DNA of 64,000 nucleotides from Verrucomicrobiota bacterium (lineage in GTDB: Bacteria > Verrucomicrobiota > Verrucomicrobiia > Verrucomicrobiales > Verrucomicrobiaceae). The DNA lies in assembly GCA_025360015.1 (NCBI GenBank), contig JANYCZ010000042.1:62001-126000 (forward strand). The letters are read 5' to 3'. This document shows, one piece after another, positions 20,774-63,342 of this stretch. The notes beneath the pieces were generated by a model that was given only the letters and a program-made list of their open reading frames with translations, had not been told where the DNA came from and did not search any database. Made by a program: the position numbers and the translations under genes. Numbering within the stretch: the first letter of the stretch is position 1; every line of letters begins with the position of its first letter.

Positions 20774-20846
20774 AAAGTTGATGGCAGCAGGTGTGCTTTA
20801 GCTTGAATGCATGCGCCTCACCGGCGTTGGAGCTAACAGTCGGGAT

Positions 20847-21814: not shown

Positions 21815-21840
21815 AAGGTGCGCCGTACACGTCACGTCAC

Positions 21841-39953: not shown

Positions 39954-41387
39954 TTAGCAAGACTTGGCGTGGAAAGAAAACACATGCAGGAAGGTCCGCG
40001 CGATGATCTCCAGATCCAGGTAAAACGACCAGTTCTGGCAGTACTCGATGTCGGAAGTCACGCGATGCTTGATCTCGCTCGCATCATCCACCGGTCCACG
40101 ATGACCGCGGACCTGGGCAAGGCCGGTCACACCTGGCTTCACGGTGTGGCGCAGCGCATACTGGCTGCATTCCATGGCAAACAACACATCATGTTCCGCC
40201 ATGTGCGGCCGTGGCCCGACCACGGACATATCACCAAACAGCACATTCAGGAACTGCGGCATCTCATCAATGCTGAGCTTCCGCATCAGCCCGCCGCCCG
40301 TGAAGATACGCGAGTCATTGGCACGCGCCTGCACGCTCTCCTTGCCGTGATTCACCGTCATGGTGCGGAATTTGTAAATCTTGAACATCTGGCCGTCGGC
40401 CCCGGAGCGCGATTGCTTGAAGAAGAGCGGGCCGCGTGAGAAGAAGCGATGCACAAACCACACACCGGCGCACAGGAACGGCAGCACCAGCACCACCACC
40501 GGCAGGCTGATGGAAATATCCAGCAGACGCTTCAGGAAGCGGTGCGAAGGGCTGACCAGCGGATGCTTGTGCAGACTGACGAGCTTCATCTGCGAGTACT
40601 CCGTGAGCTGCACCGAGCCCATGTCTCCCACGATCGGCTGCAGATCCACCGCCAGATGCGTGCCATACGATTCCGCAAGAACCCGGATTCTTTCCGTGCG
40701 TGCAGCATCTGTGGGCAGGCGCCAGATCAGCAGATTCGGCCGGCCACGCTTGAGCGACTCTTCAAGCTGATGCTCCAGGAAAGTCTCCTGGCTGGCGTCC
40801 GTCTCAATGGCGAGCACCTCGTAAAGGTTGATGCCGAGCATCGTCTTGTTGGAAAACCACTCCCGGGTGGAGGCCTCACCCGCCTCATCACACACCGCCA
40901 GAATGCGCAGACGCGGCTGAATCCGTGCGCCGAGCACCTGCAGCACCTTCATAAACAGGATTTTCCCGATCATCAGACACGGCCCGAGCGTGATCACAAA
41001 CATCACCAACTGCTTGCGTGACACATCGTAGTTCCGCCACAGCCCCAGATAGACGAACACCGTCAGCGCCAGAAACAGCACCTGCGCCGCGCAGATGCGC
41101 AGCTTGCGCCCGTTCAGCAGTTGAAACATGTAGTGCCCTTCACGCGACCAGATGAGCGTGTGCAGCAGCAGCCCGATGATGCCCAGCGCCAGCAGCACCC
41201 CGTCCTTCGCGGGCGGAGCCCAGACCAGGTTGTGCGCATCGGGCGGCATCAATTGGGAAAGGATGAAAGCTGCGAAGTAGGCACTGGCGACGGATAGGGC
41301 ATCCACCAGCACGAAAAACGGTGTCCATCCACGAACTCTTTGGCTAAGGGCGTCTTGCATGACCGAACCTTCCTTTGCAACAACCAT
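39954..41387 (-). CDS. polyprenyl-phosphate sugar-1-phosphate transferase (EPS initiation)
   Basis: The product has 477 residues. Four or five N-terminal membrane segments and a central Rossmann-like cytoplasmic part precede the C-terminal bacterial sugar-transferase domain (about residues 290-477): FLKRLLDISISL, GPLFFKQSRSGADG, KIYKFRTM, KLSIDEMPQFLNVLFGDMSVVGPRP and KPGVTGLAQVRG. This is the WbaP/WcaJ type that loads hexose-1-phosphate onto undecaprenyl phosphate, the first step of exopolysaccharide synthesis. The start 41387 is used; ATG 41360 is an alternative. It follows the O-antigen-ligase-like gene on the minus strand by 91 bases, so co-transcription is likely. Confidence 0.92.
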   Translation of the reverse strand: MVVAKEGSVMQDALSQRVRGWTPFFVLVDALSVASAYFAAFILSQLMPPDAHNLVWAPPAKDGVLLALGIIGLLLHTLIWSREGHYMFQLLNGRKLRICAAQVLFLALTVFVYLGLWRNYDVSRKQLVMFVITLGPCLMIGKILFMKVLQVLGARIQPRLRILAVCDEAGEASTREWFSNKTMLGINLYEVLAIETDASQETFLEHQLEESLKRGRPNLLIWRLPTDAARTERIRVLAESYGTHLAVDLQPIVGDMGSVQLTEYSQMKLVSLHKHPLVSPSHRFLKRLLDISISLPVVVLVLPFLCAGVWFVHRFFSRGPLFFKQSRSGADGQMFKIYKFRTMTVNHGKESVQARANDSRIFTGGGLMRKLSIDEMPQFLNVLFGDMSVVGPRPHMAEHDVLFAMECSQYALRHTVKPGVTGLAQVRGHRGPVDDASEIKHRVTSDIEYCQNWSFYLDLEIIARTFLHVFSFHAKSC

Positions 41388-43248: not shown

Positions 43249-44244
<996 letters not shown>

Positions 44245-44265
44245 TTGCCCCCCTCTAAATCCCTT

Positions 44266-45645
44266 ATGAGAATTTGTTGCATCGGTGCCGGCTATGTCGG
44301 CGGCCCTACAATGGCGATGATCGCCGCCAAATGTCCCCACATCCGCGTTGAAGTGGTGGATCTCAACGCCGAGCGCATCGCCGCTTGGAACTCCAGCGAA
44401 CTCCCCGTCTATGAGCCTGGGCTTGATGAATTGGTGCAAGGCTCACGTGGGAAGAACCTCTTCTTCTCCACCGAGGTCAAAGCCAGCATCCACGCCGCAG
44501 ACATCATCTTTGTGAGCGTGAACACGCCCACCAAGACCTTCGGCGTCGGCGCACACAAGGCGGCGGATCTTCGCTTCGTCGAAGCCGTGGCCCGCACCAT
44601 CGCAGAAGTGGCCGACACACCGAAGATCATCGTCGAAAAGAGCACCATCCCGGTGCGCACCGCCCAGGCCATTCAGACCATCCTCGCCTCCAGCGAAAAA
44701 GGCCTGAAGCACCAGGTGCTCTCCAATCCGGAATTCCTCGCCGAAGGCACCGCCGTCGTTGACCTCACCAGCCCTGACCGCATCCTCATCGGCGGCGAGC
44801 AGACGGAAGGCGGCCTGGCAGCCATTGAGACGCTGGTCAGCGTCTATGCCAACTGGGTTCCGCGCGAGCGCATCCTCAAGACCAATCTGTGGTCCTCGGA
44901 GCTGTCCAAGCTCGTCGCCAACGCCTTCCTCGCTCAACGCATCTCCTCCATCAACAGCATCTCCGCTCTTTGCGAAAAGACCGGTGCAGATGTGGATGAA
45001 GTGGCGCGCGCCATCGGCACCGACTCCCGCATCGGACCCAAGTTCCTCAAGTCCTCCGTCGGCTTCGGTGGCTCCTGCTTCCAGAAAGACGTGCTCAATC
45101 TCGTCTATCTCTGCGGCCACTTCGGCCTGCCGGAAGTCGCCGCCTACTGGGATCAGGTCATCATCATGAACGACTGGCAGAAGCATCGCTTCGCCGAGCG
45201 TGTGCTGCGCACTCTGTTCAATACTGTCACTGGCAAGCGCATCGGCGTGCTCGGTTTCGCCTTCAAAAAGGACACCAACGACACCCGCGAATCCGCCGCC
45301 ATCTACGTCTGCAAGGATCTCATCGAGGAGCGCGCCAAGCTCTCCATCTTCGATCCCAAGGTCGGCTCCGCCCAGATGTGCAAAGACCTCGAGATCGAAA
45401 GCACTCATCCGAATGTCGAGTTCGCCACCAGCGCAGCACAAGCTGCTGAGGGTGCGCACGCGCTGCTCGTGCTCACCGAGTGGGATGAATTCCGCCAGCT
45501 CGATTTCGAAGCCATCTATCAGTCCATGGTGAAACCCGCCTGGATCTTCGACGGCCGCAGCCTCCTCGACCACGCCAAGCTCCGTCAAATCGGTTTCAAG
45601 GTTTACAGCATCGGCAAGCCGCTTCCCCAAGAAGCGGTTGCATAG
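44266..45645 (+). CDS. ugd: UDP-glucose 6-dehydrogenase of eukaryote-like type
   Basis: The product has 459 residues from ATG 44266; the in-frame ATG at 44245 only adds seven. It oxidises UDP-glucose twice to UDP-glucuronate using [14 protein letters not shown] (Rossmann motif), [59 protein letters not shown] and [11 protein letters not shown] (catalytic Cys271) are visible. Several stretches, such as [21 protein letters not shown] and [11 protein letters not shown], match the animal enzyme as I remember it and differ from the short bacterial Ugd/TuaD type. The length is also close to the animal form. It feeds UXS, encoded just upstream. Confidence 0.94.
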
Positions 45646-49279: not shown

Positions 49280-50398
49280 ATGCGCATTGGCTTCAACGCT
49301 TCTCTCTTCGGCTCACCCGAAATCCGTGGCTGGACCCGCTACGGTCTCAATCTCATCAACGCGCTCGATCGCGAAGGCCACGAGATCACTCTCTTCACGC
49401 CCTACGCCATCAACCCGCAGCTCACCTCAAAGCTGGCCACTGGCGTCCGAATCATCCACACCGAGACCCCGCGCTACTGGCGCTGGCTTTCCATGGATCT
49501 GCCCAAGCTGCTGAAGCGTGAGAAGATCGACCTGTTCCACACGCCGCATCACTTCGGCCTCCCTCTCAATTCCCCCTGCCCCACCGTCGTGACCATTCAC
49601 GATGCCATCGAGATGCACGAACGCAAAATGCGCTTCTCAGATCTGCGCCAGATCCGAGCACTGCCAAACAAGATGGACCACTGGCTGACGGAAAAAGTGG
49701 CGCATCAGGTCATCACCGTGAGCCAGTACAGCCACGACCGCATCGTGGAGCAGCGCCCGCATCTGCGCGGCCGCGTGCAAGTCATTCCCAATGCCGCTGA
49801 TCCACTCTTCAGCCCCTCGTTCACTCCGCTGCCATCAGAAATTCAAGAGCAGTTGAACGCCGCGCCCTACTTCTTCTACGTCGGCGGATTTGAGCCGCGC
49901 AAAAACGTTCCCTTCATGCTGAAGGCCTTCGCCGAAGCCAATCTGGACAGCACCCGGCTGGTGATGGCGGGCGGCGCCGCCTCACACGGCACTGCTTTGC
50001 GCGCACAGATCAAGGAGATGAATCTGGAATCCCGCTGCCTGCTGCTGGGCCGCGTGGACGACGCCTGGCTGCCAGGCCTGTATGCCGGCGCTTTGGCATT
50101 CGTCTATCCCAGTCTTTACGAAGGCTTCGGTCTTCAAATCTGTGAAGCATTCGCGATGGGCTGCCCGGTGATCGCAGCAGACGCCACCAGCCTTCCCGAA
50201 GTTCTCGGCCCCGGCGGCGAGACCTTCACTCTGGACAGCACGCAGCAGTTGTCCGGACTGCTCAAGCGCATCGCCTGTGACGAGTCCTACCGCGATGAGC
50301 TGAAGCAACGCGCCGTGCTGCGCTCCGCGACTTTTAGCTGGGACGAAACCGCGCGCCTCACCGCGCGCGTCTATTCAAAAATCCTCTCCCAAAACTGA
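49280..50398 (+). CDS. GT4-family glycosyltransferase
   Basis: The product has 372 residues. MRIGFNASLFGSPEIRGWTRYGLNLINAL is typical for the start of mannosyl/rhamnosyl-type GT4 enzymes. FHTPHHFGLPL, TIHDAIEMHE, VITVSQYSHDRI, VIPNAADPLF, FFYVGGFEPRKN and PSLYEGFGLQICEAF (E-x7-E) follow in the canonical GT-B order. The donor is probably a GDP- or UDP-sugar and cannot be fixed. The next gene begins 3 bases after its stop, so they are co-translated from one transcript. Confidence 0.9.
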   Translation: MRIGFNASLFGSPEIRGWTRYGLNLINALDREGHEITLFTPYAINPQLTSKLATGVRIIHTETPRYWRWLSMDLPKLLKREKIDLFHTPHHFGLPLNSPCPTVVTIHDAIEMHERKMRFSDLRQIRALPNKMDHWLTEKVAHQVITVSQYSHDRIVEQRPHLRGRVQVIPNAADPLFSPSFTPLPSEIQEQLNAAPYFFYVGGFEPRKNVPFMLKAFAEANLDSTRLVMAGGAASHGTALRAQIKEMNLESRCLLLGRVDDAWLPGLYAGALAFVYPSLYEGFGLQICEAFAMGCPVIAADATSLPEVLGPGGETFTLDSTQQLSGLLKRIACDESYRDELKQRAVLRSATFSWDETARLTARVYSKILSQN

Positions 50399-50401
50399 TT
50401 C

Positions 50402-51622
50402 ATGAAGTTGAAATACGTCTTCCCCGAACCGCCGCTGCCTTTTCTAGGGGCCGCCGCACGTCTCTCCCACCTCCTCCTTTCGGAGGCCGTCCAACGTGGC
50501 GTCGATGTCGAGGCCTTCATCGAGTACTTTGATGAGGACGACGCCACCGCGCTGCGCGAGATGTTCAACGCTCCGAACTGCAAGCTGCGCCTGTTCTGCG
50601 CCAAGACGGTGCCCAAGAACTTCCTGCGCACCACACGCAGCCTGTTCTGGCAGGGCGCGTTTCTCTATGATGCCGCGTTCATGTCCGCGCTTGATGAAGC
50701 CATGCGGGATCCGGATGCCGTGCTGCATCTCGAAACACATTCAGCCTGCTGGCCCGGCCTCAAATACCTGGACCGCACCATTCTCAATCTTCACTACCTG
50801 CTCAACACTGACATGAAGTCGGAGAAGTCCCACGGTCTGCGGGTGAAGTGGAATCTGCATCGCGAGCGCGAGATGCTCAAGACCTTCAAATACATGGCCG
50901 CTGTGACTCCCGCGCTCGCGGATGAAGTGTCCCTCATCAATCCCACCGCGCTCATCCGCCCCGTACAGTTCGGTCTGGACCTGGCCGGTTATCCTTACTC
51001 AGGCCCGTCCGCCATGGGGAATCGTGCGCCCCACATTGGCATGATCGGCAGCTATGGCTGGGCCCCCACCCGCGCCGCCGCGCGACACTTGTTCAAGCTA
51101 TGGCCCGAGATCAAGCAGGCCGTGAGCAATGCCAAACTCTTCATCGTCGGCCGTGGTGCCAACCGCATCCTCGGAGACGATGCCAGAGCCGTGGATGTGA
51201 ATGCGCGCGTAGTGGAAAACGTGCCCGACATCATTCCCTACTTCCGCGAACTCGACTGCATGGTGTATGCACCGGAGCATGCCTCGGGCATCAAGGTGAA
51301 GGTGCTCGAAGCCTTCGCCCTCGGTGTCCCCGTCGTCACCAACAAGCATGGCATCGACGGCATCCCCGTCCGCCACGGCGAGCATTGCATCGTCGGCAGC
51401 AGCAACGCGGAACTCACCGCTGGCGTGCGTTACCTCATGGAAAATCCCGAGGCCAAGCTCCGCATGACCCAGGCGGCCAGACAGCTTGTCGAGGCGATCT
51501 GTGCTCCATCCAACGTGTTTGATCAATGGCTCGCCGTCTATGCGCAGATGAACGCCCGCAAAGCTGCGAAGCCTCAAAGGCTGGAGCCCGCAGCCTCTCC
51601 CGTCGGCCTCGCCGTGACCTGA
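50402..51622 (+). CDS. GT4-like glycosyltransferase
   Basis: The product has 406 residues. The N-terminal half is divergent (LPFLGAAARLSHLLLSEAVQRG). The C-terminal half is a GT-B nucleotide-sugar domain: IGMIGSYGWAPTRAAARHLF, KLFIVGRGANRIL, then ASGIKVKVLEAFALG with a Lys-rich variant of the E-x7-E region, and KHGIDGIPV. The 'GIDGIPV' and 'SGIKVK' pattern is that of Glyco_trans_1_4 enzymes of polysaccharide and protein glycosylation clusters. Specificity unknown. The C-terminal 30 residues are Ala/Arg-rich and likely flexible. Confidence 0.82.
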   Translation: MKLKYVFPEPPLPFLGAAARLSHLLLSEAVQRGVDVEAFIEYFDEDDATALREMFNAPNCKLRLFCAKTVPKNFLRTTRSLFWQGAFLYDAAFMSALDEAMRDPDAVLHLETHSACWPGLKYLDRTILNLHYLLNTDMKSEKSHGLRVKWNLHREREMLKTFKYMAAVTPALADEVSLINPTALIRPVQFGLDLAGYPYSGPSAMGNRAPHIGMIGSYGWAPTRAAARHLFKLWPEIKQAVSNAKLFIVGRGANRILGDDARAVDVNARVVENVPDIIPYFRELDCMVYAPEHASGIKVKVLEAFALGVPVVTNKHGIDGIPVRHGEHCIVGSSNAELTAGVRYLMENPEAKLRMTQAARQLVEAICAPSNVFDQWLAVYAQMNARKAAKPQRLEPAASPVGLAVT

Positions 51623-51650
51623 TTCAATTTCAACCTCATCCACATCCACC

Positions 51651-52574
51651 ATGGCAAGTGAAATATCCGCTCTTATCATCTGCGGTGACCGTCTCGACGA
51701 AGTCACCCGCTGCCTCGAAAGTCTCGCTAAGCTCGGCGATCTCCTCCACGAGGTGCTTCTGCTCAAAAACGCACCGAAGCATCCCTGGCGGGACAACTGC
51801 TTCGAGTCAGTGCCTTCAGGCGTCCGCAACCGCCTGAACATCATCTCTTCCGAGAAGCAGGTCTTCCCCACCACCGGCCGCAACATGCTGGCAGCACAGG
51901 CCACGGGCTCTGTTTATCTGTTCCTCGATGACGACTCACTCGTGCTGGAGCGCAACGGCATCGAGGGCGGCCTGAATATTTTAAAAACCGACACCACCGT
52001 CGGCTCTATCGCCTACCCGCAGTCCACCGAAGATGGCAAACTGGCCCCCTACATGCAGCCTGCGCCTGTGGAGCATCCTTGCTTCACCTGCGGTTTCATG
52101 ACCTGCGCGGCACTGGTGCGGGCGGATGTGTACCACAAGCTGGGCGGCTTCCAGGAGCTGCTGCAAATGGCCCACGAGGAGAATGAATTCTGCAAACGGC
52201 AGTGGGATCTGGGGTTCTCAGTGGTCTATCTGCCAGACACCTGCATCTGCCACAACCCAAGCCCGAACGCACGCAACAGCAGCCAGCGCGCCAAGCTGAA
52301 CGCACGCAATGGCTGGTATCAGGCCGTGCTGCATGAACCGCTGCCGCTGCTGTGTTGCACCCTTCTTCCACGTCTGCTTCTCGGTGCCCGCTACCTGCGG
52401 CAGGCCAAGGGGTGGACGGAGGGGAACTGGTTCCCGTTGCTTTCCGAAGGCCTGCAAAACCTGGCCACCGACCTCCCCGCCCTGTGGCGTGCACGCAAAC
52501 CTCTTCACTGGGCCAGCCTGCGACGCTGGCAGCAGATCAAACAGGATTATCCCCGCTACCCAAACGCCGCCTAA
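51651..52574 (+). CDS. GT2-family glycosyltransferase
   Basis: The product has 307 residues. It is a GT-A fold enzyme: SALIICGDRLDEVTRCLESLAKL at the start, FLDDDSLVLERNG with the DDD metal/nucleotide motif (about residue 90), GGFQELLQMAHEENEFCKRQWDLGF with the acceptor-site E-E/D-E pattern, then IHVPDA-like VVYLPDTCICHN. The C-terminal region is basic with a possible amphipathic membrane-contacting helix (LPLLCCTLLPRLLLGARYL). It should transfer a sugar with inversion to the growing repeat unit. It is 28 bases after the previous glycosyltransferase gene. Confidence 0.88.
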   Translation: MASEISALIICGDRLDEVTRCLESLAKLGDLLHEVLLLKNAPKHPWRDNCFESVPSGVRNRLNIISSEKQVFPTTGRNMLAAQATGSVYLFLDDDSLVLERNGIEGGLNILKTDTTVGSIAYPQSTEDGKLAPYMQPAPVEHPCFTCGFMTCAALVRADVYHKLGGFQELLQMAHEENEFCKRQWDLGFSVVYLPDTCICHNPSPNARNSSQRAKLNARNGWYQAVLHEPLPLLCCTLLPRLLLGARYLRQAKGWTEGNWFPLLSEGLQNLATDLPALWRARKPLHWASLRRWQQIKQDYPRYPNAA

Positions 52575-52586
52575 GCGAACCCCCAT

Positions 52587-53399
52587 ATGAAAACCACCAC
52601 TAGAAACGTCCGCCCCGGCCTCCGCCGGTGGTGCCTCAATACCCACCCCAAGGAAATCGGCGCATGCGTCAAGTGGGTCATGCGCACCCGCAGGATTGAA
52701 ACAGAACTGAAGGACAACGGCGTGCGCCTCTGGCTGGACCCGATTAGCCCGCTGGCTGACGCGCTGGACCAGGGCAAGTACGAAGAGCAGCTTGAGAACT
52801 GGCTGCGGTCCACCCTGGACTCCACCGGGACCTTTCTCGATGTGGGGGCAAATGAGGGCTACTTTTCCATGTTTGCGGCGGTGACGCTGAAGGCGGCCAG
52901 GGTGGTCTGTGTGGAGCCCAACTCTGCGCTGTGGCCGGTGATCATGCGCAATGTTCAGTTGAATCTGGCCAGCGTCTGCTCGCTCGCTCCCTTCGCAATT
53001 GGAGATTTTGCCGGCAAGGCAGAGTTCGTGATTCAGCCGTCCACCAACAGCGGCGCGTCCTCACTGTGCCAGCGCCCGAGCCGCCTCGACCGTTTCCGCG
53101 AGCGCCGCAGCGTGCCGGTGGTGACGCTGGACTGGCTCATCCAGTCCAAGGGCATCATCGAAGTCTCTGCCATCAAGGTCGATGTGGAAGGCTTCGAGGA
53201 AAAGGTCATCGCAGGCGCCCGGGAAAGCCTGAAAAACGGCGTCATCAAATCGGTGGCCATTGAGATGCACAACACGCTGGAACGCACGCATGAACACGCC
53301 GCTGACGAGATCCGAGAAATGATGAAAGCGGTCGGCTACTCCGAACGCCCTTCCGACTGCTTCCGCTGGATCTTCTTTGACCGCCCTAACACCAAGTAA
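52587..53399 (+). CDS. FkbM-family methyltransferase
   Basis: The product has 270 residues. The SAM-binding core is clear: GTFLDVGANEGYFSMFAA (motif I, D-V-G-A-N-x-G), VVCVEPN (acidic end of strand 2), then VVTLDWLI and IKVDVEGFEEKVIAGA, the D-V-E-G-F signature of FkbM enzymes. Family members O-methylate sugars, polyketides or glycans; a sugar hydroxyl in the exopolysaccharide is the likely substrate here. It sits between a GT2 gene (12 bases) and the first DVRD-motif gene (5 bases). Its start is MKTTTRNVRPGL. Confidence 0.9.
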   Translation: MKTTTRNVRPGLRRWCLNTHPKEIGACVKWVMRTRRIETELKDNGVRLWLDPISPLADALDQGKYEEQLENWLRSTLDSTGTFLDVGANEGYFSMFAAVTLKAARVVCVEPNSALWPVIMRNVQLNLASVCSLAPFAIGDFAGKAEFVIQPSTNSGASSLCQRPSRLDRFRERRSVPVVTLDWLIQSKGIIEVSAIKVDVEGFEEKVIAGARESLKNGVIKSVAIEMHNTLERTHEHAADEIREMMKAVGYSERPSDCFRWIFFDRPNTK

Positions 53400-53404
53400 T
53401 CACC

Positions 53405-54325
53405 ATGTCTCCTCAAAACACTCCCCCTGTTGTAATCGGAGCCATCAATCATCACGAATGGCCCGTGGTCGCGCCATGGATCAAATCCCTGCGCAAAACT
53501 TCCTTCACCGGCCGCGTGATTCTCGTCACGTATGAGGACGTGGCGGAATACGTGAAGGCTCAGATGCGCCACCACGGCGTCGAAATCGTCGAAGCCAAGA
53601 TGGAGATCTCCGTCAACCGCGGACGCTTCAAAGACTTCGCCGCCATTCTTGAATCCATCCCGCCAGAAACATGCGTCGTCGCCACCGATGTGCGCGACGT
53701 GGTGTTCCAGGAAGACCCCACCACGCTGGCCGACCTTCTGGATGTCTCCAAGAAAAAAGAACTCGTCGTCAGCTCCGAAGGCTGGCGCTACCACGACTCC
53801 GAATGGAACCTCGCCACGCTGCGCAAAGTCTTCCCCACGCATGAAGCCCGCATGCTCTACGAGGAGGTCTACTGCTCCGGCGTCATCGTCGGCACCGCAG
53901 GCGCGCTGAAGCGCCTCTCTGAGCGCATCTGGGATCTCGCCAAATCAGCCCCCAGTTTCAACGGCGACCAGGTGGCCATGAACATCGCGCTGCGTGAGCC
54001 CGAGTTCATGAATCAAACCCGCTTCCTCACCGTGCAGGACGGTCGCATCTTCCACGCACGCGCCACCTGGCTGCGCCACAAGCAGGGAGCGTCCACGCTG
54101 GGTGAACCCAAGTTCTCCATGCTCAGCGGCATCGCTCTCAAGGTCGACGAAAAGCCCGTCTCCGTCCTCCATCAATACACCGAGAGCACCGCCGAACGCA
54201 TGCGCGTGCTGCTGCGCTACAACTGCCTCCTCACCGGCGTCGCCCATCGCCTGAAGCAGCGCTTCAGACCTGCCGACGACAGCAAGGTCTATTGGAAGAC
54301 CTCACCCGCGTCGCCGCCTGCGTGA
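53405..54325 (+). CDS. DVRD-motif putative glycosyltransferase (paralogue 1)
   Basis: The product has 306 residues. I do not recognise a named family. GAINHHEWPVV at the start, RGRFKDFAAI, VVATDVRDVVFQEDP (a D-x-x-D motif after a hydrophobic strand, where GT-A enzymes bind metal and nucleotide), SSEGWRYHDSEWNLATLRKVFP, CSGVIVGTAGAL and FNGDQVAMNI resemble nucleotide-diphospho-sugar transferases of the GT-A fold. The same landmarks recur in the product encoded at 55301. The two flank a TupA-like ATP-grasp gene, so they probably work on the same structure. No signal peptide; cytoplasmic. Confidence 0.65.
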   Translation: MSPQNTPPVVIGAINHHEWPVVAPWIKSLRKTSFTGRVILVTYEDVAEYVKAQMRHHGVEIVEAKMEISVNRGRFKDFAAILESIPPETCVVATDVRDVVFQEDPTTLADLLDVSKKKELVVSSEGWRYHDSEWNLATLRKVFPTHEARMLYEEVYCSGVIVGTAGALKRLSERIWDLAKSAPSFNGDQVAMNIALREPEFMNQTRFLTVQDGRIFHARATWLRHKQGASTLGEPKFSMLSGIALKVDEKPVSVLHQYTESTAERMRVLLRYNCLLTGVAHRLKQRFRPADDSKVYWKTSPASPPA

Positions 54326-54368
54326 CCCCCTCGGCTTGCCTGTCAGACCAACCACCAACCAACCAACC

Positions 54369-55280
54369 ATGATATCCAACCTGCCGTTCGTCCGTTTTTT
54401 TGCCCACGGAGGCGTGGGCAAGACACTCGCCAAGATCCTGCCCGACACTCCTTGGGCCAGCTACCTCCTCTCCTTCCGCGTCTTCATGCGCACCTATGGA
54501 TTTCGCCCCAGTCTGAAGCGTCCCCGCACGCTGAATGAATGGCTCTTCGCCCGCAAGGTCATGCTGCCCCGCAGCGTCTCCTTCGCCCCATGGGTGGACA
54601 AGCACCTCGCCAAGGAGTCCGTGGCCAATACGCTGCACAAGCAGGATGTCGAGTGCCACGTGGCTCGCACTCTGCACTACGCCACCTCGGCGGACGATGC
54701 CTTCTTCAATGCCGAGCTGCCACGCTGCGTCGTGAAAGGCACCCACGGCTCCGGCATGACCATCCTCATCGAATCCCCACGCCGCCTCACCGAAGATGAA
54801 AAAAACCAGATGCGCCAGTGGCTCACCGTGGACTACTTCTGGGGCTCGCGTGAGCCGAGCTACCGGCATCTGAAGCCCGGCATCATCGCAGAGGAGTTTC
54901 TGCCCAGCGACGGCCTCGTCCCCGAGGACTTCAAGTTCTTTTGCTTCAAGGGCAAGGTCGCCTTCATCCAGCATGACACCGGGCGCTACATCGACCACCG
55001 CCGCTGCCTCTATTCCCCCACCTGGGAGCGGCTGCCAGTCAGCCTCCAGTATCATTCCTATGAGCACACGTCCGAGGCGCCAAAGGATCTGAAAATGATG
55101 ATCGCCATCGCCAAGCGCCTGTCCGAAAAACAAAACTTCGTGCGCGTGGATCTCTACCAGACACGCGCCGGAGTCTACTTCGGCGAGATGACTTTCTTCC
55201 CCGGCAGCGGGCTCGAGGTCTTCAACCCCATCACCTTCGACACAGAAGTCTATCAGCACTGGATGACCCAGGCCTGCTGA
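54369..55280 (+). CDS. TupA-like ATP-grasp protein
   Basis: The product has 303 residues from ATG 54369; ATG 54336 is in frame but less likely. The TupA-like pattern is present: PRTLNEWLFARKVM, APWVDKHLAKESV, RCVVKGTHGSGMTILI (ATP-binding lysine and Gly-rich loop), KPGIIAEEFLP, EDFKFFCFKGKVAFIQHDTGRYIDH and FVRVDLYQTRAGVYFGEMTFFPGSGLE. ATP-grasp enzymes form amide or ester bonds through acyl phosphates; TupA itself is linked to teichuronopeptide in Bacillus (family knowledge). Here it may attach an amino acid or acyl group to a uronic acid of the polysaccharide, which is inference. It is flanked by the two DVRD paralogues. Confidence 0.85.
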   Translation: MISNLPFVRFFAHGGVGKTLAKILPDTPWASYLLSFRVFMRTYGFRPSLKRPRTLNEWLFARKVMLPRSVSFAPWVDKHLAKESVANTLHKQDVECHVARTLHYATSADDAFFNAELPRCVVKGTHGSGMTILIESPRRLTEDEKNQMRQWLTVDYFWGSREPSYRHLKPGIIAEEFLPSDGLVPEDFKFFCFKGKVAFIQHDTGRYIDHRRCLYSPTWERLPVSLQYHSYEHTSEAPKDLKMMIAIAKRLSEKQNFVRVDLYQTRAGVYFGEMTFFPGSGLEVFNPITFDTEVYQHWMTQAC

Positions 55281-55300
55281 AGTTCCGAAAAAGTTTCCTC

Positions 55301-56206
55301 ATGAAAACGAACGCCAAAAACTCGGACTTCCTCATCGGAGCCATCGACCACCACGACTGGGCTGACGTGTGCTGCTGGCACCGCTCGGCATTACAGGCCG
55401 GATTCACCGGTCAGGTCATCCTGCTCTGCTATGAGCACATGACGGAGCAGGCGCTCGGCCGGTTGCGTGCCGAGGGCATCCAGATCATCACCGCCCGCAG
55501 CGGCCGTGGTGTCAACGAAGACCGCTTCAAGGATGTCGCGGACTTCGCCGAGGAGCACCTTGATCCCGATGCACGCATCCTCATGTGCGATGTGCGTGAC
55601 GTCGCCTTCCAGCGCTCCATCCATGATGTGCTCGACGGCCTGCTCGATGAAAAGCCGCTGGCCTGCGCCTCCGAAGGCGTCACCTACGGCAGCTCGGCCT
55701 GGAACCTCGAAAACGTGCGCTCGAACTTCCCCGACCTGATGGACATCATCTGCCCCATGGAAATCTTCTGCGCCGGGGTCATCGCCGGGCGCGCGGGACG
55801 CTTCGTGGAGTTTTGCCGCGCCATCTGGAGCCAGTCCATCCGCGCCACGAGCTTCAATGGCGACCAGATCGCCATGAACATGGTCATGCGCACGTCAGAG
55901 TTCGCCGGAGAGATGAACTTCCAGCCAGCACACAATGCCATGATATGCCATTACGGCAACATGGCCTTGGACCGCCAGGTGAGCATCAGCGCGAACGGCC
56001 TGCTCGATGATGTGAACGGACTCGTGGGCGTGTTTCATCAATACACCCGCGACTCCCGCGTGCGCTTCCGCACGCTGCTGCGGCATCGCTGCCTCATCTC
56101 CTTCTACGGCGGCAAGCTCCTCTCCGCACTCCGTCGCAAACTGGGCATGCAGCCCGACTGGACCCCCTACTGGATCACCCCCGTGTCCAACACTCAACAC
56201 GCATGA
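55301..56206 (+). CDS. DVRD-motif putative glycosyltransferase (paralogue 2)
   Basis: The product has 301 residues, clearly homologous along its length to the 53405 product: GAIDHHDWADV, NEDRFKDVADF, LMCDVRDVAFQ, CASEGVTYGSSAWNLENVRSNFP, CAGVIAGRAGRF and FNGDQIAMNM. The shared 'DVRDV-x-F-Q' and 'NGDQ-x-AMN' suggest a nucleotide- or metal-binding GT-A-like fold. The C-terminal region (VGVFHQYTRDSRVRFRTLL) is also shared. The two have diverged a good deal in between, so different substrates are likely. Its stop overlaps the start of the 743-residue transferase gene (ATGA). Confidence 0.65.
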   Translation: MKTNAKNSDFLIGAIDHHDWADVCCWHRSALQAGFTGQVILLCYEHMTEQALGRLRAEGIQIITARSGRGVNEDRFKDVADFAEEHLDPDARILMCDVRDVAFQRSIHDVLDGLLDEKPLACASEGVTYGSSAWNLENVRSNFPDLMDIICPMEIFCAGVIAGRAGRFVEFCRAIWSQSIRATSFNGDQIAMNMVMRTSEFAGEMNFQPAHNAMICHYGNMALDRQVSISANGLLDDVNGLVGVFHQYTRDSRVRFRTLLRHRCLISFYGGKLLSALRRKLGMQPDWTPYWITPVSNTQHA

Positions 56207-58434
56207 AAATCGCCGTCAGCGGATATGTCTCTGCACAGGAGGGCAGCGTGGCTTCAGCCAATGCACTGCTCCTGCGCTCCCTCCTCACAGAGGGTCATGA
56301 AGTGGACTTCTTTTCGAAGCCCTCGTTCGTCGATCCCCGGCCCGGCGTCGGTGAGCATGAGCGTTTCCGTTTCATCAGCACGGACAACGTCGGCCCGGAT
56401 CGCTTTCGCGCCAAGGTTCAAAAGGTGCCCTTCCTCGGCTTCCTCGCCTGCCGTGTGGACTGCGCCACCTACGAGCGCCTGCTCTTGAAAAAGATGCGGC
56501 AGGAGCACGCCACCCGCCGCTATGATCTCTGCCTCTGGCTCGGCGATTACGCCCCAGGCCGTGTCAAAAACCTGCCCATGGTCAGCTTCGCCCAGGGTCC
56601 GCCCGGCACGGATGCCCGCTCCATCGTTTCACGCTTCACCGAGATTCGCAAACTAGCCGGCAGCAGGCGCGCGCTGCAGTGGTTCACCCTCGCAAAGCTC
56701 CGCCTCTCCCCTCTCGGCCTCCCCCCTCTGAAACATTCAGACCACATCATCGTCGGCAGCACCCAGTCAAAGCAGACGCTGCATGCAGTCTATGGCGTGC
56801 CACCGGCTCAGATCTCAGCACTGCCCTACCCCATTGATCTAAACATGTTCCGCCCGGCGGAAGAACCTGCACCCCCGAGCAACGAGCTGCGCGTGCTCTG
56901 GCTCGGCCGCATCATTCCGCGCAAGCGCCTCGATCTCTTTCTCTGCGGCATTGAGCACGCCATTCGCCAGGGCCTTCAAGTCAAAGCCACCATCGTCGGC
57001 GGCCTCGGCTTTGTGCCAGGCTATGAAAAGCTCATCGAAGCCTTCCCCTTCCCTGATCGCCTGCGCTGGATCAAAGGCATGCCACGTCAGCAAGTCCCCG
57101 CGCTGCTGCATCAGCACGATGTTCTCATCCAGCCCAGCGATGAAGAAAACTTCGGCTCCTCCGTGTCCGAGGCCCAGGCCTGCGGACTCCCCGTCATCGT
57201 CGGCCACACCAATGGCAACGCCGACTACCTCTGCTCCCGCGATGTGCATCTCACGGATGACCGCGCCGAGACCCTCGCCGCCGCGCTCAAGCACACGGCC
57301 CACACCAAATCCGGCTCACCGCTCCTCTCACGCTCACTCGCAGAGCAGCACTTTGAGCTCACTCAGGTCACCCAGCACCTCAGCACCATTCTTGCAGAGG
57401 TGCTGGCCTCCCGCTCACCAGTCACCCGCGCACGCATGCATACTCAGTCTGAAACCATCGACATCATCATCCCCACGCTGAAGCGCCCCGATCACCTGCG
57501 CCGCTGCCTTGAGGCGCTGAAGCAGCAGGACAAGCAGGCAGACCAGATCCTGGTAGGCGTGCGCGCGGACGATGAAGTGACTCACGCGGTGATCCAGGAA
57601 TACGAGGTCACGCTGCCAGTGCGCGCCGTGGAGGCACGCGGCGTGGGTGTCGTCGGCTCCATGAACTCCTGCCTCAAAGAATGCCACGCCCAGTGGATCG
57701 CCCTGCTGGATGATGATGTGGAAATCCCACCACACTGGCTCAGCAACATGCTGGCCCATGGGCAGTCACGCTCAGACGTCGTGGCCGCAGGCGCGCGCGA
57801 CATGCTCCAGGACTACCCCGAGATGCGCAAAACCGAACCTCTGGAGGAAGACGTCGGCAATGTGCATTGGTTTGGCCGCGTCACCGGCGGTCATCACCGT
57901 GGCGGCGGCACGGCTCGCGCCGTGCAGGTCCTTCGTGGTTCCAACTGCCTTTTTCAGGGCGACTTCCTGCGCTCCTGCGGCTTTGAAAGCGGCCTGCGTG
58001 GCAGAGGCGCTCAGGTCAACTGGGAGCTCGCACTCGGCCTGCAAGCCAAAGCGCAAAACCTCAAGATGATCTTCGATCCCACCGTGCACATCATTCACAA
58101 TGTGGCTCCGCGTCATGATGGTGACACCGTGCATCGCGGCATCTTCAATTTCGAAGGCACCAGCGACATCGCCTACAATGAAACCTTCGTCGCTCTCAAG
58201 CACGGCACCGGCCTCGTGCGCTGGACTATTCCTCTGTGGCAGGCGCTCATCGGCAGTCACGTCTGCCCCGGCCTCGCCCGTGCGGTGGATTTCATCCTCC
58301 GTCCACGCTCCCAGCCACGCCAGCGTTTTGCCGCCACCCTTACCGGACGCCTAGCCGCCTTTAAGGCATGCCTTAGCCGCACTCAGACAACAGGGAGCTT
58401 ATTGTCTCATCAGACAGCCGCCCCCGCCCCTTAG
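56203..58434 (+). CDS. bifunctional GT4-GT2 glycosyltransferase
   Basis: The product has 743 residues. The first about 405 residues are a GT-B enzyme: [58 protein letters not shown] and [17 protein letters not shown] (E-x7-E-like). After a linker (about 405-425) a GT-A family 2 domain starts, [24 protein letters not shown], with [13 protein letters not shown] as the D-x-D site and [16 protein letters not shown] as the acceptor region. Two different linkages could be made by one chain. The ATGA overlap with the upstream DVRD gene fixes the start at 56203 and implies coupled translation. Confidence 0.88.
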
Positions 58435-58483
58435 ACAGGTGTGCTCAGGGTGTCTGCCGAAAGTCCACTTTTTCCACATCCCC

Positions 58484-59146
58484 ATGATCGCCTATCTTTT
58501 TCAAAACCGGCTCAGAGCCCCCCTCTTCAGTCCCGCCTGGGTGAAGAACTGGCTCAAGCGCGTGTGGACGCTCCCCAGCCTCCTCGGCTACTGCTGGCAG
58601 TCCATGCGCTGGCGCATGAAGGGCGCGCGCATCGCCACTTCCACCGTGATTTCAAAGCTCACCGTGCAGGGCCAGGCCTCGCACCTCACCATCGGCGAAG
58701 GCTGCTGCATCGGCATCACCACCATGCAGTCGCATGCGCAGATCAGCATCGGCAAATGCGTCGTCATCAATGACGGCGTGCGCCTCATCACCGGTTCGCA
58801 TGACATCACCTCCCCCACCTATGAGCACATCTTCGCACCCATCGTCGTGGAAGATTACGCCTGGGTCGCTACCGACGCCATGGTGCTCAAAGGCGTCACC
58901 ATCGGTCGCGGCGCAGTGGTCGCCGCCGGTGCCGTCGTGGTGAAGGATGTGCGCCCCTTCGCCGTCGTCGGCGGGAATCCCGCCAAAGAGATCGGCACCC
59001 GCAACATCGAACGCTTTGAGTATCTGCCCTCGTCCTGGTTTGGCCCTGTGATGGCCTGGACCGGCCGCAATCCCATACAGGCCTCCACGCCCGCGAAACC
59101 AGCCGGCGAGCCTCTGTGCCCCGTCGCTGAACCTCTGCTGCAATAG
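58484..59146 (+). CDS. hexapeptide-repeat acyltransferase
   Basis: The product has 220 residues from ATG 58484; a GTG at 58439 is an alternative with no better signal. After a short leader it forms left-handed beta-helix repeats: [33 protein letters not shown] (the HDI-type catalytic His region of WcaF/NodL-like acetyltransferases), [32 protein letters not shown] and [10 protein letters not shown]. It would O-acetylate a sugar using acetyl-CoA. The next gene, a polymerase/ligase, starts 1 base after its stop. The C-terminal tail is Pro/Ala-rich. Confidence 0.88.
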
Positions 59147-59147
59147 C

Positions 59148-60512
59148 ATGGAATACTTCATTGCCTTCCTGATCGTGCTGCCTGCCTTCGTGCTGGCCGT
59201 GCAGCGCTCCACCTACCTGATGGACTATGTGTTCTTCGTGTTCTCGTTGAACCGTGGCATCCGCCGTCTGGTGGACTTCTACATCAATGGCGCGTTCAAT
59301 CCCCTCTCCACCATCAGCCTCACGCCGCTGATCGTCAGCGCCGTGTTGCTCATCCCCGCGCTGTCGCGTTTCCATCTCCTCACCCCCAACAGCCGCAATG
59401 TCGCCACCCTCATCATGGTGGCGCTCGGCCACGGGCTCATCATCGGCTTTGTCAATTCGGGTGTCGGCGCCTTCTACTCCCTCGGTGAATGGATGGCCGG
59501 CTTCGGTGCCTTCCTCTACGCCGCCACCGCGCAGATCACCCCCCGCGTCGCAGATCGCTGGATGAGATCCTGCGGCTACGCCGCCCTCATCGTCGCGGCC
59601 TACGGCTGGTATCAATACTACACCATCCCCGAGTGGGACGCCTTCTGGGTCACCGAGGTGAAGTTCGTCGGCTATCTCGGCCAGCTCCGCCCCACCGAGA
59701 TGTCCGTCTTCTCCACCATGCATGAGCGCGGCCCCTGCGCCAGCTTCCTCGCTTGGGCCGCCATCCCGATGATCCTGAACTCACGCTGGCGCATCATTGG
59801 CAGTTGGGCCACCGTCATGCTGCTCCTCTCCGTGGTGGTGCTGACTCTTACACGCACCATGTTCATCATCGTGGGTTTGGTGGCCATGCTCCAGCCCGCT
59901 CTTTCCAAAGGCAAGGGCATCGGCCGCGTCATCGTCCTCGCCGTGCTCATGGGCGTGGGTGCCAGCGTCGGCATGCAGTACATGCCCGGCTCAGAGCGCA
60001 TCACCAAGCGCTACGACACCATGAAGGACATGCAGAATGACGGCTCCTTCAAAGGCCGCATGAGCATCTTCACCACCGGCCTCCCCTGGGTGCTGCAGCA
60101 TCCGGTCGGCACCGGCCTCGGCAGCTCCGGTTTTGGCGCGGGCCGCATCGGTGGCGCGGGCGGCGCAACTCAGGAAGGCTTCTGCGACAGCGGCTACATC
60201 GAAGTCTTCAGCCAGTTCGGCTGGATCGGTGGTCTCGCCTTCTTCGGCGCCATGGCGCAGATCTGGGGAGAGCTGAGCAGCCGCATCCGCCAGGGCGGCA
60301 GGGATCCCTTTCTTCACACCGGCCGCGTCGTGCTGGTGGGCTGTCTCGTCTTCCTCGCTGTGGGCAATATCTTTGGCGGCTTCTCCCTCTTCTGGGTCTT
60401 CCTCGGCGTCTCGCTCAATCGCATGACCAAGCCAGCCATAAAATCCCAGCCGACAGCACTTCCTACCACGCACGCCATGCCCTGGGATCAGCCCCAGACA
60501 GCTCTTGGCTGA
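59148..60512 (+). CDS. second O-antigen ligase/polymerase-like membrane protein
   Basis: The product has 454 residues with about ten transmembrane segments (FIAFLIVLPAFVLAV, LTPLIVSAVLLIPAL, VMLLLSVVVLTLTRTMFIIVGLVAML). A periplasmic loop carries GTGLGSSGFGAGRIGGAGG and GFCDSGYIEVFSQFGWIGGLAF, the Wzy_C-like 'G-x-G-x-G' and 'D-S-x-Y-x-E' positions. It differs from the 41479 protein in loop sequence. It is a likely Wzy polymerase or ligase for the glycan made by this cluster. Tight spacing to both neighbours (1 and 26 bases) places it in the main operon. Confidence 0.85.
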   Translation: MEYFIAFLIVLPAFVLAVQRSTYLMDYVFFVFSLNRGIRRLVDFYINGAFNPLSTISLTPLIVSAVLLIPALSRFHLLTPNSRNVATLIMVALGHGLIIGFVNSGVGAFYSLGEWMAGFGAFLYAATAQITPRVADRWMRSCGYAALIVAAYGWYQYYTIPEWDAFWVTEVKFVGYLGQLRPTEMSVFSTMHERGPCASFLAWAAIPMILNSRWRIIGSWATVMLLLSVVVLTLTRTMFIIVGLVAMLQPALSKGKGIGRVIVLAVLMGVGASVGMQYMPGSERITKRYDTMKDMQNDGSFKGRMSIFTTGLPWVLQHPVGTGLGSSGFGAGRIGGAGGATQEGFCDSGYIEVFSQFGWIGGLAFFGAMAQIWGELSSRIRQGGRDPFLHTGRVVLVGCLVFLAVGNIFGGFSLFWVFLGVSLNRMTKPAIKSQPTALPTTHAMPWDQPQTALG

Positions 60513-60538
60513 AAATGAACACCCCAAATCAGACCCCC

Positions 60539-61693
60539 ATGAAAATCGCCTACGCCATGATCAACTGCAACCGCCGCGACGGCAGCGCGCGCGCGGTCAA
60601 CGAAGTCGCCGAACGCCTCGCGAAAAAACACGAGGTGCATCTCTACGCCCGCAAAGCGGAGGACCTCGATCTCTCCAATATCGACTGGCATCGCGTGCCC
60701 GGCGTCAACTGGGCGGAGGTCATCGACTTCGGCAGCTACTACCTCGAAGTGAACCGCCGCGTGCGTCCAGGCCAGTTTGAAATCGTCCACACCATCGGCT
60801 GCAACACCCAGCGCGGCAATGTGGTCACCATTCAAAACATCCAGCCTGCCAAGAAGCAGATTCTTGATCGCCTTGGCCGCTCGGAAAAGGTCTCCCCCGC
60901 GCGCCGCCTCACCCGCTGGCTGTATTTGAACGCCACCTGCGCTGCGGAGAAGCGCCTGTATCAGCATCGCGTCGGGCACAAGGCCCCCATGTTCCTGCCC
61001 GTGTCTCGCGGCGTCGCCGCAGAGCTGACCAAACACTACAACATCGGCCCGGCCCAGGTGCGCATCGTCCCCAATGCGGCGGACACCCTGCGTTTCAAAC
61101 CGCTCAGCGCCGAAGCACGCAACGCCTGGCGCGCGACTCACAACGTCCCGCAGGATCGCATCATGGCCATCTTTGCTGGCGGCGAGTGGGCGCGCAAAGG
61201 TCTCGACTTCGCCATCAAGGCCATGGCCCATCTCAAGGATGTCCCGCTGACCCTGTTCATCGCCGGTGATGATCCAGATCGTGCACGCTTCACCCAGATG
61301 GCGCGTGAGTCAGGCGCTGCCGATCACATCGTCTTCGGCGGCTTTCGCAAGGACATCCCTGAGGCCCTCGGCGCAGCAGACTTCTTCCTCTTCCCCAGCT
61401 GGTACGAAGCCTTCAGCCTCGCCACCATCGAGGCCGCCGCCTGCGGCCTGCCCGTGGTCGCCACCCGCATCAACGGCACGGAGGACTTCATCACCCCCGG
61501 TGAAAACGGTGACTTCATCGAGCACGACGCCGAGCAGGTCGCCACCGTCCTGCGCCGCCTTTGCGCTGACCCCCAGCACCTCAAGACCATGGGTGCCAAC
61601 GCCCGTAAAAACGTGGAGCAGAACTACACCTGGGACCGCATTGCACAGATGACGGAAGACGCCTACCTCGCCCATCTCAACAGCTCCAACTGA
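60539..61693 (+). CDS. GT4-family glycosyltransferase
   Basis: The product has 384 residues from ATG 60539; an ATG at 60515 is in frame but would add only eight polar residues. MKIAYAMINCNRRDGSARAVNEVAERLAKK is the GT-B N-terminal start, then VHTIGCNTQRGNVVTIQ, VPNAADTLRFKP, AIFAGGEWARKGLDFAIKAM, LFIAGDDPDRARF, VFGGFRKDIPEALGAADFF and SWYEAFSLATIEAAACG (E-x7-E). It closely follows the polymerase gene. Retaining transferase; sugar unknown. The Arg-rich segment around residue 120 (RRLTRWLYLN) could touch the membrane. Confidence 0.9.
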   Translation: MKIAYAMINCNRRDGSARAVNEVAERLAKKHEVHLYARKAEDLDLSNIDWHRVPGVNWAEVIDFGSYYLEVNRRVRPGQFEIVHTIGCNTQRGNVVTIQNIQPAKKQILDRLGRSEKVSPARRLTRWLYLNATCAAEKRLYQHRVGHKAPMFLPVSRGVAAELTKHYNIGPAQVRIVPNAADTLRFKPLSAEARNAWRATHNVPQDRIMAIFAGGEWARKGLDFAIKAMAHLKDVPLTLFIAGDDPDRARFTQMARESGAADHIVFGGFRKDIPEALGAADFFLFPSWYEAFSLATIEAAACGLPVVATRINGTEDFITPGENGDFIEHDAEQVATVLRRLCADPQHLKTMGANARKNVEQNYTWDRIAQMTEDAYLAHLNSSN

Positions 61694-61703
61694 TCTCACC
61701 GCC

Positions 61704-62903
61704 ATGCACATTCTCATTGTCAGTCACTCCTCCGCCACCGCTCTCAATCAAGAGGTGTATGCCCGCGTCCAGCGTGAGACGGGTTGGAAGATCACCCTCG
61801 TGGTGCCAGACCGCTGGCACGACGAGTTTGGCAACGCCCTGCGGCAGGAGCCCTGCAAGGGCCTGGAAGATTCCGTGATCCGCTGCGCCGTCTGGAAAAA
61901 CGGCAGCATCATCCTCCACGTGTACCGCATGCGCTGGCAGCGCTTTCTGCGCGAATTGAAGCCGGACGTGATCTACATGAACCACGAGCCCTATGCACTG
62001 GCCACCGCCCAGGTCTGCCACGCCAACAACCGCTCGATCAAGGTGCCCTTCGGCTTCTACTCCTGCCAGAACATCAACAAAAAATATCCCATCCCCTTCT
62101 CGTGGATGGAGTCCATGGTCTATCGCTCCTCCAGCTTCGCCCTGCCGATCACCGATCGCGTGGCAGAAGTTTTGCAGGCCAAAGGCTACCGTGGCAGGCA
62201 GACCGTCTGTGCGCTGCCGTTGGACCCGGAGCGCTACCATCCGCGCCTCAAAGCAACGCCGCCGGACCGCTTCCCTCAAACCAATGCCCCCGTCATCGGT
62301 TACGTGGGCCGTTTGATCGAACCCAAAGGCCTGCGCACTCTTGCAGCAGCTCTCGGCCAGGTGCGCGATCTCGACTGGCGCATGGTGCTCGTCGGCACCG
62401 GCGATTTCCAGGCGGAGTTCGAACAACTCCTCACAGCTCAAGGCGTGCGTGAGCGCATCTCCTTCGCCGGTTACGTCCCGCATGATGAAACGCCGCGCTG
62501 GCTCGCCTCCATGGACATGCTGGTGCTGCCTTCTGAAACGCAGGCAAATTGGGAAGAACAATTCGGCCGCGTCATCCCCGAAGCCATGGCCTGCGGCGCA
62601 GCCGTCATCGGTTCCGACTCCGGCGAGATCCCGCACCTCATCCGCCAGAGTGAAGGCGGCCTCATCTTCACCCAGCGCGATCCCGCCGCCATGGCCGTTG
62701 TGCTGCGCCAGCTCATCAGCGGGCCAAAGCTTCGTCGTCAGCTCGCGGAAAATGGCCGTCATTGGGTCGAGCGTGACATCTCGGTTCCTGCCGTGGCGCA
62801 AAAGATGATCGAGACCTTCACCGCTGCGGCCAAGAACCCGCAGGCCGGTCGTGCGGAAAAACATCAGCCGTTCCCATCAAGCCATGCGTTTGCACAGTCC
62901 TGA
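61704..62903 (+). CDS. GT4-family glycosyltransferase
   Basis: The product has 399 residues. MHILIVSHSSATALNQEVYARV and VIYMNHEPYALAT form the N-terminal half. VIGYVGRLIEPKGLRTLAAAL, WRMVLVGTGDFQAEF, ISFAGYVPHDETPRWL and EQFGRVIPEAMACG give the C-terminal nucleotide-sugar site with E-x7-E. The C-terminal 25 residues beyond the fold are polar. The next gene starts inside its last 20 bases, so translation is coupled. It is a retaining sugar transferase of unknown donor, the last complete GT4 gene of the run. Confidence 0.9.
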   Translation: MHILIVSHSSATALNQEVYARVQRETGWKITLVVPDRWHDEFGNALRQEPCKGLEDSVIRCAVWKNGSIILHVYRMRWQRFLRELKPDVIYMNHEPYALATAQVCHANNRSIKVPFGFYSCQNINKKYPIPFSWMESMVYRSSSFALPITDRVAEVLQAKGYRGRQTVCALPLDPERYHPRLKATPPDRFPQTNAPVIGYVGRLIEPKGLRTLAAALGQVRDLDWRMVLVGTGDFQAEFEQLLTAQGVRERISFAGYVPHDETPRWLASMDMLVLPSETQANWEEQFGRVIPEAMACGAAVIGSDSGEIPHLIRQSEGGLIFTQRDPAAMAVVLRQLISGPKLRRQLAENGRHWVERDISVPAVAQKMIETFTAAAKNPQAGRAEKHQPFPSSHAFAQS

Positions 62904-63342
62904 ACTGCTCTGGAAGTGGAGCCGCGATCTGCTGCATCGTGGTTGGAAACTCCCCGCGCGCATCGTGAAGACGCTCAACTTCGCCCTGCACAAGTGCCTG
63001 CTGCCAGCAGAGGCGCAGGTGGGTGAAGGCGTCATCCTGGAGCACTACGCCATGGGCATCGTCATGCACCCGCAGGTGCGCATCGGCAAACGCTGCCGCA
63101 TCTACCATCACGTCACCCTGGCTGCGGAAACCTGGATCGGCTCCCCGCACTTCATCACGCTGGAGGATGACGTCACCATCGGCGCGCACAGCATCGTCGT
63201 GGCCCGGCCCAATACGCCCCTGACCATCGGACAAAAATCGACCCTCGGCGCAGGTTCGGTGCTGACGAAAAATATTCCTCCCTTCGAAATCTGGGCCGGC
63301 AATCCGGCACGAAAAATCAGCGACGTCGCAAAACCATCATGA
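62884..63342 (+). CDS. serine-acetyltransferase-like hexapeptide acyltransferase
   Basis: The product has 152 residues from ATG 62884, which overlaps the preceding gene by 20 bases; an ATG at 62851 would overlap more. A basic helical leader (RDLLHRGWKLPARIVKTLNF) precedes hexapeptide turns: VILEHYAMGIVMHPQVRIGKRCRIYHHVTLA, ITLEDDVTIGAHSIVVA, LTIGQKSTLGAGSVLTKNI and WAGNPARKI. This is the short WbbJ/CysE-like type of cluster acyltransferases. It probably acetylates a sugar. The next glycosyltransferase starts within its stop (ATGA). Confidence 0.87.
   Translation: MRLHSPELLWKWSRDLLHRGWKLPARIVKTLNFALHKCLLPAEAQVGEGVILEHYAMGIVMHPQVRIGKRCRIYHHVTLAAETWIGSPHFITLEDDVTIGAHSIVVARPNTPLTIGQKSTLGAGSVLTKNIPPFEIWAGNPARKISDVAKPS

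Follow-up and report, generated by a model that had tools for sequence, protein, structure and literature searches.

Two predicted GT-A glycosyltransferases flank a TupA-like ATP-grasp enzyme in a probable exopolysaccharide cluster of a Prosthecobacter-type bacterium

Results

Two diverged DVRD genes on either side of a TupA-like gene

The window analysed here is a stretch of 64,000 nucleotides from an assembly of a Verrucomicrobiota bacterium (GCA_025360015.1, contig JANYCZ010000042.1, positions 62,001 to 126,000), very probably a Prosthecobacter-type organism. At 53405-56206 it carries three open reading frames (ORFs) on the plus strand, a gene for a TupA-like ATP-grasp protein and, on each side of it, a gene for what we call a DVRD protein, after a shared motif (Table 1). 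A previous reading of the bare sequence (the sequence-only reading) had described this arrangement, and its ORFs, motifs and paralogy are all borne out. Gaps of 5, 10 and 20 bases, respectively, precede the three genes, which belong to a packed gene run (49280-63998) with intergenic gaps of -53 to +28 bases. DVRD1 has the motifs DVRDVVFQ and FNGDQVAMN, DVRD2 the motifs DVRDVAFQ and FNGDQIAMN; in a single pairwise comparison, 100 of 281 residues are identical (36%, expectation value E 3e-56).

In a quick tree without bootstrap, DVRD1 and DVRD2 fall into separate clades, with Shimodaira-Hasegawa-like approximate likelihood ratio (SH-aLRT) supports of 99 and 98, and each clade contains its own members from other strains. 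We therefore rejected a recent duplication within the cluster as the origin of the pair; the tree suggests that DVRD1 and DVRD2 are two distinct, long-diverged enzymes, both predicted to be glycosyltransferases.

Predicted fold and metal site of the DVRD proteins

No Pfam or NCBIfam model reaches its cut-off with DVRD1 or DVRD2. The structure model of DVRD1 is confident (predicted local distance difference test, pLDDT, 93.1; predicted template modelling score 0.91), and the 50 PDB matches listed by Foldseek are all glycosyltransferases, glycogenin or LH3; where a chimera code such as ABBA is the whole title, the entry is an ABO transferase. In VIA-align the best match is the glycosyltransferase (GT) domain of human LH3 (Z 17.6, root-mean-square deviation 3.5 over 215 aligned residues, 12% identity), followed by WbbM (17.2), GlyE and alpha-1,3-galactosyltransferase (both 16.9) and LgtC (16.8). 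Proteins annotated as having a "PLOD1-3-like GT domain" are among the matches in a viral structure library. These data speak for a GT-A fold, and we predict that the DVRD proteins are GT-A glycosyltransferases. Membership in an established family of unrelated activity would count against the sequence-only reading; the DVRD proteins show this at the level of the fold only, and no Pfam or NCBIfam family covers them.

Relatives occur at 59 loci in a genome collection of 84,980 species and at 22 loci in a viral scan. They are spread over Verrucomicrobiota, Pseudomonadota, Desulfovibrionaceae, Bacteroidota, Planctomycetota, one cyanobacterium and viral contigs. In an alignment of 42 rows (40 relatives and the two window proteins), R74, G159, D188, Q189 and N193, none of which was part of the search patterns, are invariant, and H256, likewise outside the patterns, is kept in 41 rows, the remaining row being gapped. 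Relatives found independently of the patterns, in phage Rctr41k and on an Aquisphaera plasmid, retain both aspartates of the DVRD motif but not its arginine, which would fit a role of the aspartate pair in holding a metal. PHROG 1579, "glycosyltransferase", matches 8 of the 42 members, and the sole Pfam matches among them at E 0.01 are weak: Nucleotid_trans in two and GT_PLOD in one (E 0.0043).

Alpha-1,3-galactosyltransferase, LgtC and glycogenin, which we take to be GT6/GT8-type retaining GT-A enzymes, and WbbM share the GT-A fold with DVRD1 (Z about 16-17) without a sequence match at curated cut-offs. These enzymes use a DxD motif. The DVRD proteins do not have this canonical motif, but a DxxD instead (D95-V-R-D98). 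Human LH3 is described as binding Mn2+ through a non-canonical DxxD (Asp112, Asp115) together with His253 (PMC6082870). As LH3 is itself of GT-A type, a DxD is no strict requirement for this fold. D95, D98 and H256 follow the sequence order of the LH3 ligands, and the predicted metal site of the DVRD proteins would resemble the manganese site of LH3. Unlike the DVRD proteins, LH3 acts on collagen, and the score of DVRD1 against the PLOD GT domain (PF25342) is 15.1 bits, below the cut-off of 27.

We found neither profile matches nor a fold that would make the DVRD proteins nucleases, phosphatases or amino-acid transferases; matches to IF-6 (DVRD1, E 0.055) and PSP (DVRD2, E 0.064) are at chance level and were discounted. 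PDB sequence searches with the DVRD and TupA-like proteins gave no matches or chance-level ones, a viral scan with patterns built from two sequences returned 61 stretches and no relatives, and a search of 288 phylum genomes with a single protein matched the genome of the window alone. The family is undescribed in our literature searches, which covered open-licence papers but not CAZy.

Several observations on phage copies stand apart. In the quick tree the Prosthecobacter DVRD lineage clusters, with moderate support, with phage and viral-contig copies. The relative in phage Rctr41k (5938-6795 of the retrieved locus) is 29% identical; a methyltransferase-like gene lies in its vicinity, as does one whose sulphotransferase match is just below the Pfam cut-off. 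On one viral contig a single ORF (4035-5840 of locus L112) combines a GT17 domain with a following DVRD domain, and the preceding ORF also contains a DVRD-like stretch.

The TupA-like protein

The identification of the middle gene as TupA-like stands: the protein matches PF14305 (ATPgrasp_TupA) with E 1.9e-36 and 126.3 bits (cut-off 25) over profile positions 18-235 of 241, which makes its family membership firm. Five homologues are 64-67% identical to it. As all five begin about 11-14 codons further in than the annotated TTG, this start is doubtful and the true one is probably near 54369. The 50 Foldseek matches listed for a weak structure model are ATP-grasp enzymes (E 1.6e-6 to 3.7e-5; the ATP-grasp fold of the named enzymes is our assumption), and most are carboxylate-amine ligases, for example ArgX, RimK, amino-acid ligases and D-Ala-D-Ala ligase. 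A viral scan for TupA returned 52 stretches and no relatives, and a literature search on the names of PF14305 found nothing.

PF14305 bears the name of tupA of Bacillus halodurans. The TupA of that species has been tied to teichuronopeptide, in which poly-glutamate and polyglucuronate make up the polymer (PMC8153356), and which belongs to the Gram-positive wall, whereas the cluster here is Gram-negative. A closer likeness is Cj1438 of the Campylobacter jejuni HS:2 capsule, a Gram-negative surface polysaccharide system which also combines a TupA-like ligase with glycosyltransferases. Cj1438 is described as a GT2 domain joined to a TupA-like amidoligase domain, Cj1438C, for which amidation of glucuronic acid has been shown (PMC11800379), and the system as using UDP-glucuronate (PMC11800379; PMC12409886). 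In the window, by contrast, TupA is a separate gene, flanked by GT-A enzymes that belong to a different family; the likeness is one of family and published description. The sequence-only reading had proposed amidation of uronic acids in a Gram-negative polysaccharide. This has an experimental precedent in Cj1438C and is already known in kind; for the window protein it is plausible by analogy.

UDP-glucuronate is indeed made nearby, by Ugd, as the sequence-only reading had pointed out. It did not mention the gene directly upstream of Ugd, which is matched in 5 of 10 related loci; most of the remaining loci end before they reach it. Since this gene encodes a homologue of UDP-glucuronate decarboxylase, some of the UDP-glucuronate is probably converted to UDP-xylose.

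Co-occurrence of DVRD and TupA genes

A DVRD search at E 0.01 matched ten of 68 genomes from the taxonomic family. We regarded copies with E 4.6e-84 or better as close, and these occur in eight genomes (G000, G306, G309, G310, G314, G317, G320 and G332). G187 (E 1.4e-8) and G341 (E 0.004) were left out; their copies are distant and located outside the cluster, as is a second copy in G317, and neither genome has TupA. TupA is found in six of the 68 genomes, always in the same cluster as a close DVRD gene, and in four of the six (window, L024, L025 and L026) directly after one. The genomes with a close DVRD gene and no TupA are G314, whose variable block is complete on one contig, and G310. The Wzy-like gene of the cluster is present in ten genomes, and an eleventh cluster, in G320, is truncated where its contig ends. 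By Fisher's test the association has a p-value of 2.6e-7 over the 68 genomes and of 0.06 among the 11 that bear the cluster, both uncorrected for kinship, and genomes of one genus are non-independent samples. Contig ends truncate the clusters of G310, G320 and G332, the contig of G314 starts inside Ugd, and that of G329 measures 7.4 kb.

The GT2 gene at 51651 is matched in all eight DVRD clusters, at 495 bits or more in six (window included) and at about 150 bits in two; in the well-covered clusters without DVRD, L128 and L130, its similarities are generic (27 and 32 bits). The FkbM gene at 52587 accompanies DVRD1-type genes in four of four cases and is found in none of the four clusters that have the other type alone, although the contig of one of these (L024) ends within the cluster. 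TupA accompanies either type. In G306 the gene order is GT2, DVRD, TupA, GT4-GT2, in G314 (L023) it is GT2, DVRD, acyltransferase (Acyl_transf_3), GT4-GT2, which indicates a swap of acyltransferase for TupA at one position; G317 has TupA together with two acyltransferases. GT2 and DVRD1 of G320 form a single frame of 626 residues (L020, 5975-7855, minus strand). This single, metagenome-derived case could be an assembly error. Its linker resembles a read-through of the intergenic gap.

Outside the genus the picture differs. Of 50 DVRD-bearing genomes elsewhere, two have TupA, more than 1 Mb away or on another contig and in neither case adjacent. (This set omits nine of the 59 loci: five of the cluster in the genus, one other Prosthecobacter locus and three second loci of included genomes.) A phylum sample of 387 genomes, assumed to be identical in both searches, as the visible handles are, contains TupA in 29, DVRD in 6 and both in 2 (p 0.07). 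The two genes are side by side in the window genome alone; in the other, G163, they lie on contigs C60 and C53. Neighbours of DVRD genes outside the genus (113 proteins at 33 of the 59 loci) are a wide mix, including 7 Glycos_transf_2, 6 GATase and 5 carbamoyl-phosphate synthase small chain proteins, and show no strong or uniform pattern. The recurrent co-occurrence on which the sequence-only reading depended therefore holds for the cluster of one genus and, as far as seen, is confined to this lineage.

Discussion

Taken together, our data make it probable that the trio is a strain-variable glycosylation block of a Wzy-type exopolysaccharide cluster, with two GT-A enzymes and an optional amide ligase. 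The gene order, the gene families and the swap can be read directly from the DNA. Given the predicted fold and metal site, DVRD1 and DVRD2 would be different metal-dependent glycosyltransferases that use a nucleotide-sugar donor, hold the metal by the D-x-x-D and the histidine, and are probably retaining, a stereochemistry that we infer. Each would add one sugar to the lipid-linked repeat unit, beside the GT2 enzyme. The TupA-like protein would activate a carboxylate with ATP and join it to an amine, the most likely substrate being a glucuronic acid of the repeat unit, through its C6 carboxylate; substrates and order of steps are likewise inferred. This would be an optional decoration. An acyltransferase gene occupies the position of TupA in another strain.

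A number of points weigh against this model. D95, R97, D98 and V99 were components of the scan patterns with which the relatives were collected, so that their invariance among members found in this way is little proof. The top GT-A relatives of the DVRD1 model are tied within 1 Z unit, which makes the predicted fold clear but not the subfamily, and none of the 42 members matches a characterised GT family above a curated Pfam or NCBIfam cut-off; activity and substrate are predictions from the fold. The sole NCBIfam match, to a "hypothetical protein" model in 2 of 42 members (E 0.0065 or weaker), was taken as chance. The two GT2 matches of about 150 bits, in G310 and G317, are possibly another GT2. 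On the side of the ligase, the structure model of the TupA-like protein is poor (pLDDT 56) and its structure matches serve as support only. Unlike in the Cj1438 system, genes dedicated to making the amine (aminotransferase, phosphatase) were not seen among the profiled genes of the cluster. Finally, because the decarboxylase homologue adjoins Ugd, all UDP-glucuronate may be converted to UDP-xylose, and glucuronate itself would then be absent from the polymer.

The sequence-only reading had assigned the DVRD proteins to a trio that jointly decorates uronic acids with amino acids or related groups. Such a true three-gene cassette would fit the close DVRD gene in the cluster of all six TupA genomes and the four cases in which TupA directly follows one. 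We nevertheless consider it very unlikely, since the predicted DVRD fold is that of a glycosyltransferase, G314 and G310 have a close DVRD gene without TupA, TupA is missing in 48 of 50 DVRD genomes outside the genus and DVRD in 27 of 29 phylum genomes with TupA, and the kinship-uncorrected association within the 11 cluster-bearing genomes stays at p 0.06. The trio is not a general cassette. The constant pairing with GT2, together with the one fusion, could also be explained if the DVRD proteins were inactive or regulatory GT-A relatives that serve as scaffold subunits of the GT2 enzyme. However, D188, Q189 and H256, which are compatible with an active site and lie outside the search pattern, are kept across distant phyla and phages, and we regard this explanation as highly improbable.

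For the ligase, the amine and the carboxylate could be distributed the other way round, with TupA coupling the carboxylate of an amino acid to the nitrogen of an amino sugar. The matches of the weak TupA model, general ATP-grasp enzymes and mostly carboxylate-amine ligases, suit either direction, and the decarboxylase next to Ugd is in favour of an aminoacylated amino sugar. Against it speaks that no aminotransferase for an amino sugar was seen among the cluster genes profiled, and that the one characterised TupA-like polysaccharide enzyme we found amidates glucuronate (PMC11800379). We consider the idea unlikely. To go beyond the proposed glycosylation block, one of the Prosthecobacter DVRD enzymes, as members of a bacterial and phage GT family with LH3-like metal site, might act only on uronic acid that TupA has amidated. 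The ligase would then gate the choice of polymer, just as chain growth in C. jejuni HS:2 is gated by amidation; we think this unlikely.

As a system, an exopolysaccharide cluster with variable genes for sugars and their decoration is ordinary. What is new is the predicted, uncatalogued glycosyltransferase family with its LH3-like metal motif, and a natural series of swaps. A sequence motif thereby becomes a testable glycosyltransferase family across several bacterial phyla and phages. Related clusters with TupA, with an acyltransferase instead, or with neither form a natural comparison set, and polymer chemistry across such strains would reveal what a stand-alone TupA and each DVRD enzyme add.

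The enclosing cluster and other parts of the window

We read the enclosing genes, which include many glycosyltransferases, as a Wzy-type exopolysaccharide cluster (Table 1). Past the window end, Poly_export and Wzz/ParA-type proteins follow downstream (L167). The likely candidate for a flippase, at 47891, has no profile match.

Table 1. Coordinates of the three-gene locus and of neighbouring cluster genes in the window.
Feature	Position	Strand	Basis or remark
Protein with bacterial sugar transferase domain, probably for chain initiation	39954..41387	-	profile match
Wzy_C protein	41479 (start)		profile match
UDP-glucuronate decarboxylase homologue (makes UDP-xylose)	43249..44244	+	E 1.6e-127
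Ugd, UDP-glucose 6-dehydrogenase (makes UDP-glucuronate)	44245..45645	+	best solved relatives E 1.9e-185
GT4 glycosyltransferase	50402..51622	+	profile match
GT2 glycosyltransferase, constant DVRD partner, DVRD-fused in one relative	51651..52574	+	profile match, gene table
FkbM methyltransferase, found with DVRD1 type only	52587..53399	+	profile match, gene table
DVRD1	53405..54325	+	predicted GT-A fold glycosyltransferase; LH3-like DxxD...H motif (D95, D98, H256)
TupA-like ATP-grasp	54336..55280	+	PF14305; predicted carboxylate-amine ligase; start probably further in (see text)
DVRD2	55301..56206	+	diverged DVRD1 paralogue, motifs kept
GT4-GT2 two-domain glycosyltransferase, right border of variable block	56203..58434	+	profile match, gene table
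WcaF-like hexapeptide acetyltransferase	58439..59146	+	below NCBIfam WcaF cut-off
Wzy_C domain protein, probable polymerase	59148..60512	+	profile match

The gene at 45949-46791 encodes a cluster protein of 280 residues that has no Pfam or NCBIfam match and is present in 7 of 10 related loci. Further upstream, 135-8946 contains genes for an RHS-repeat protein and for a surface-type protein of 2174 residues with DUF5122, Laminin_G_3 and Ig-like domains. The stretch 14700-22935 has a lower GC content (about 0.51-0.53 up to 22000) and is possibly an inserted element; within it lie a phage integrase-family gene (21841-22935) and a gene for a protein of 918 residues without Pfam match (18017-20773).

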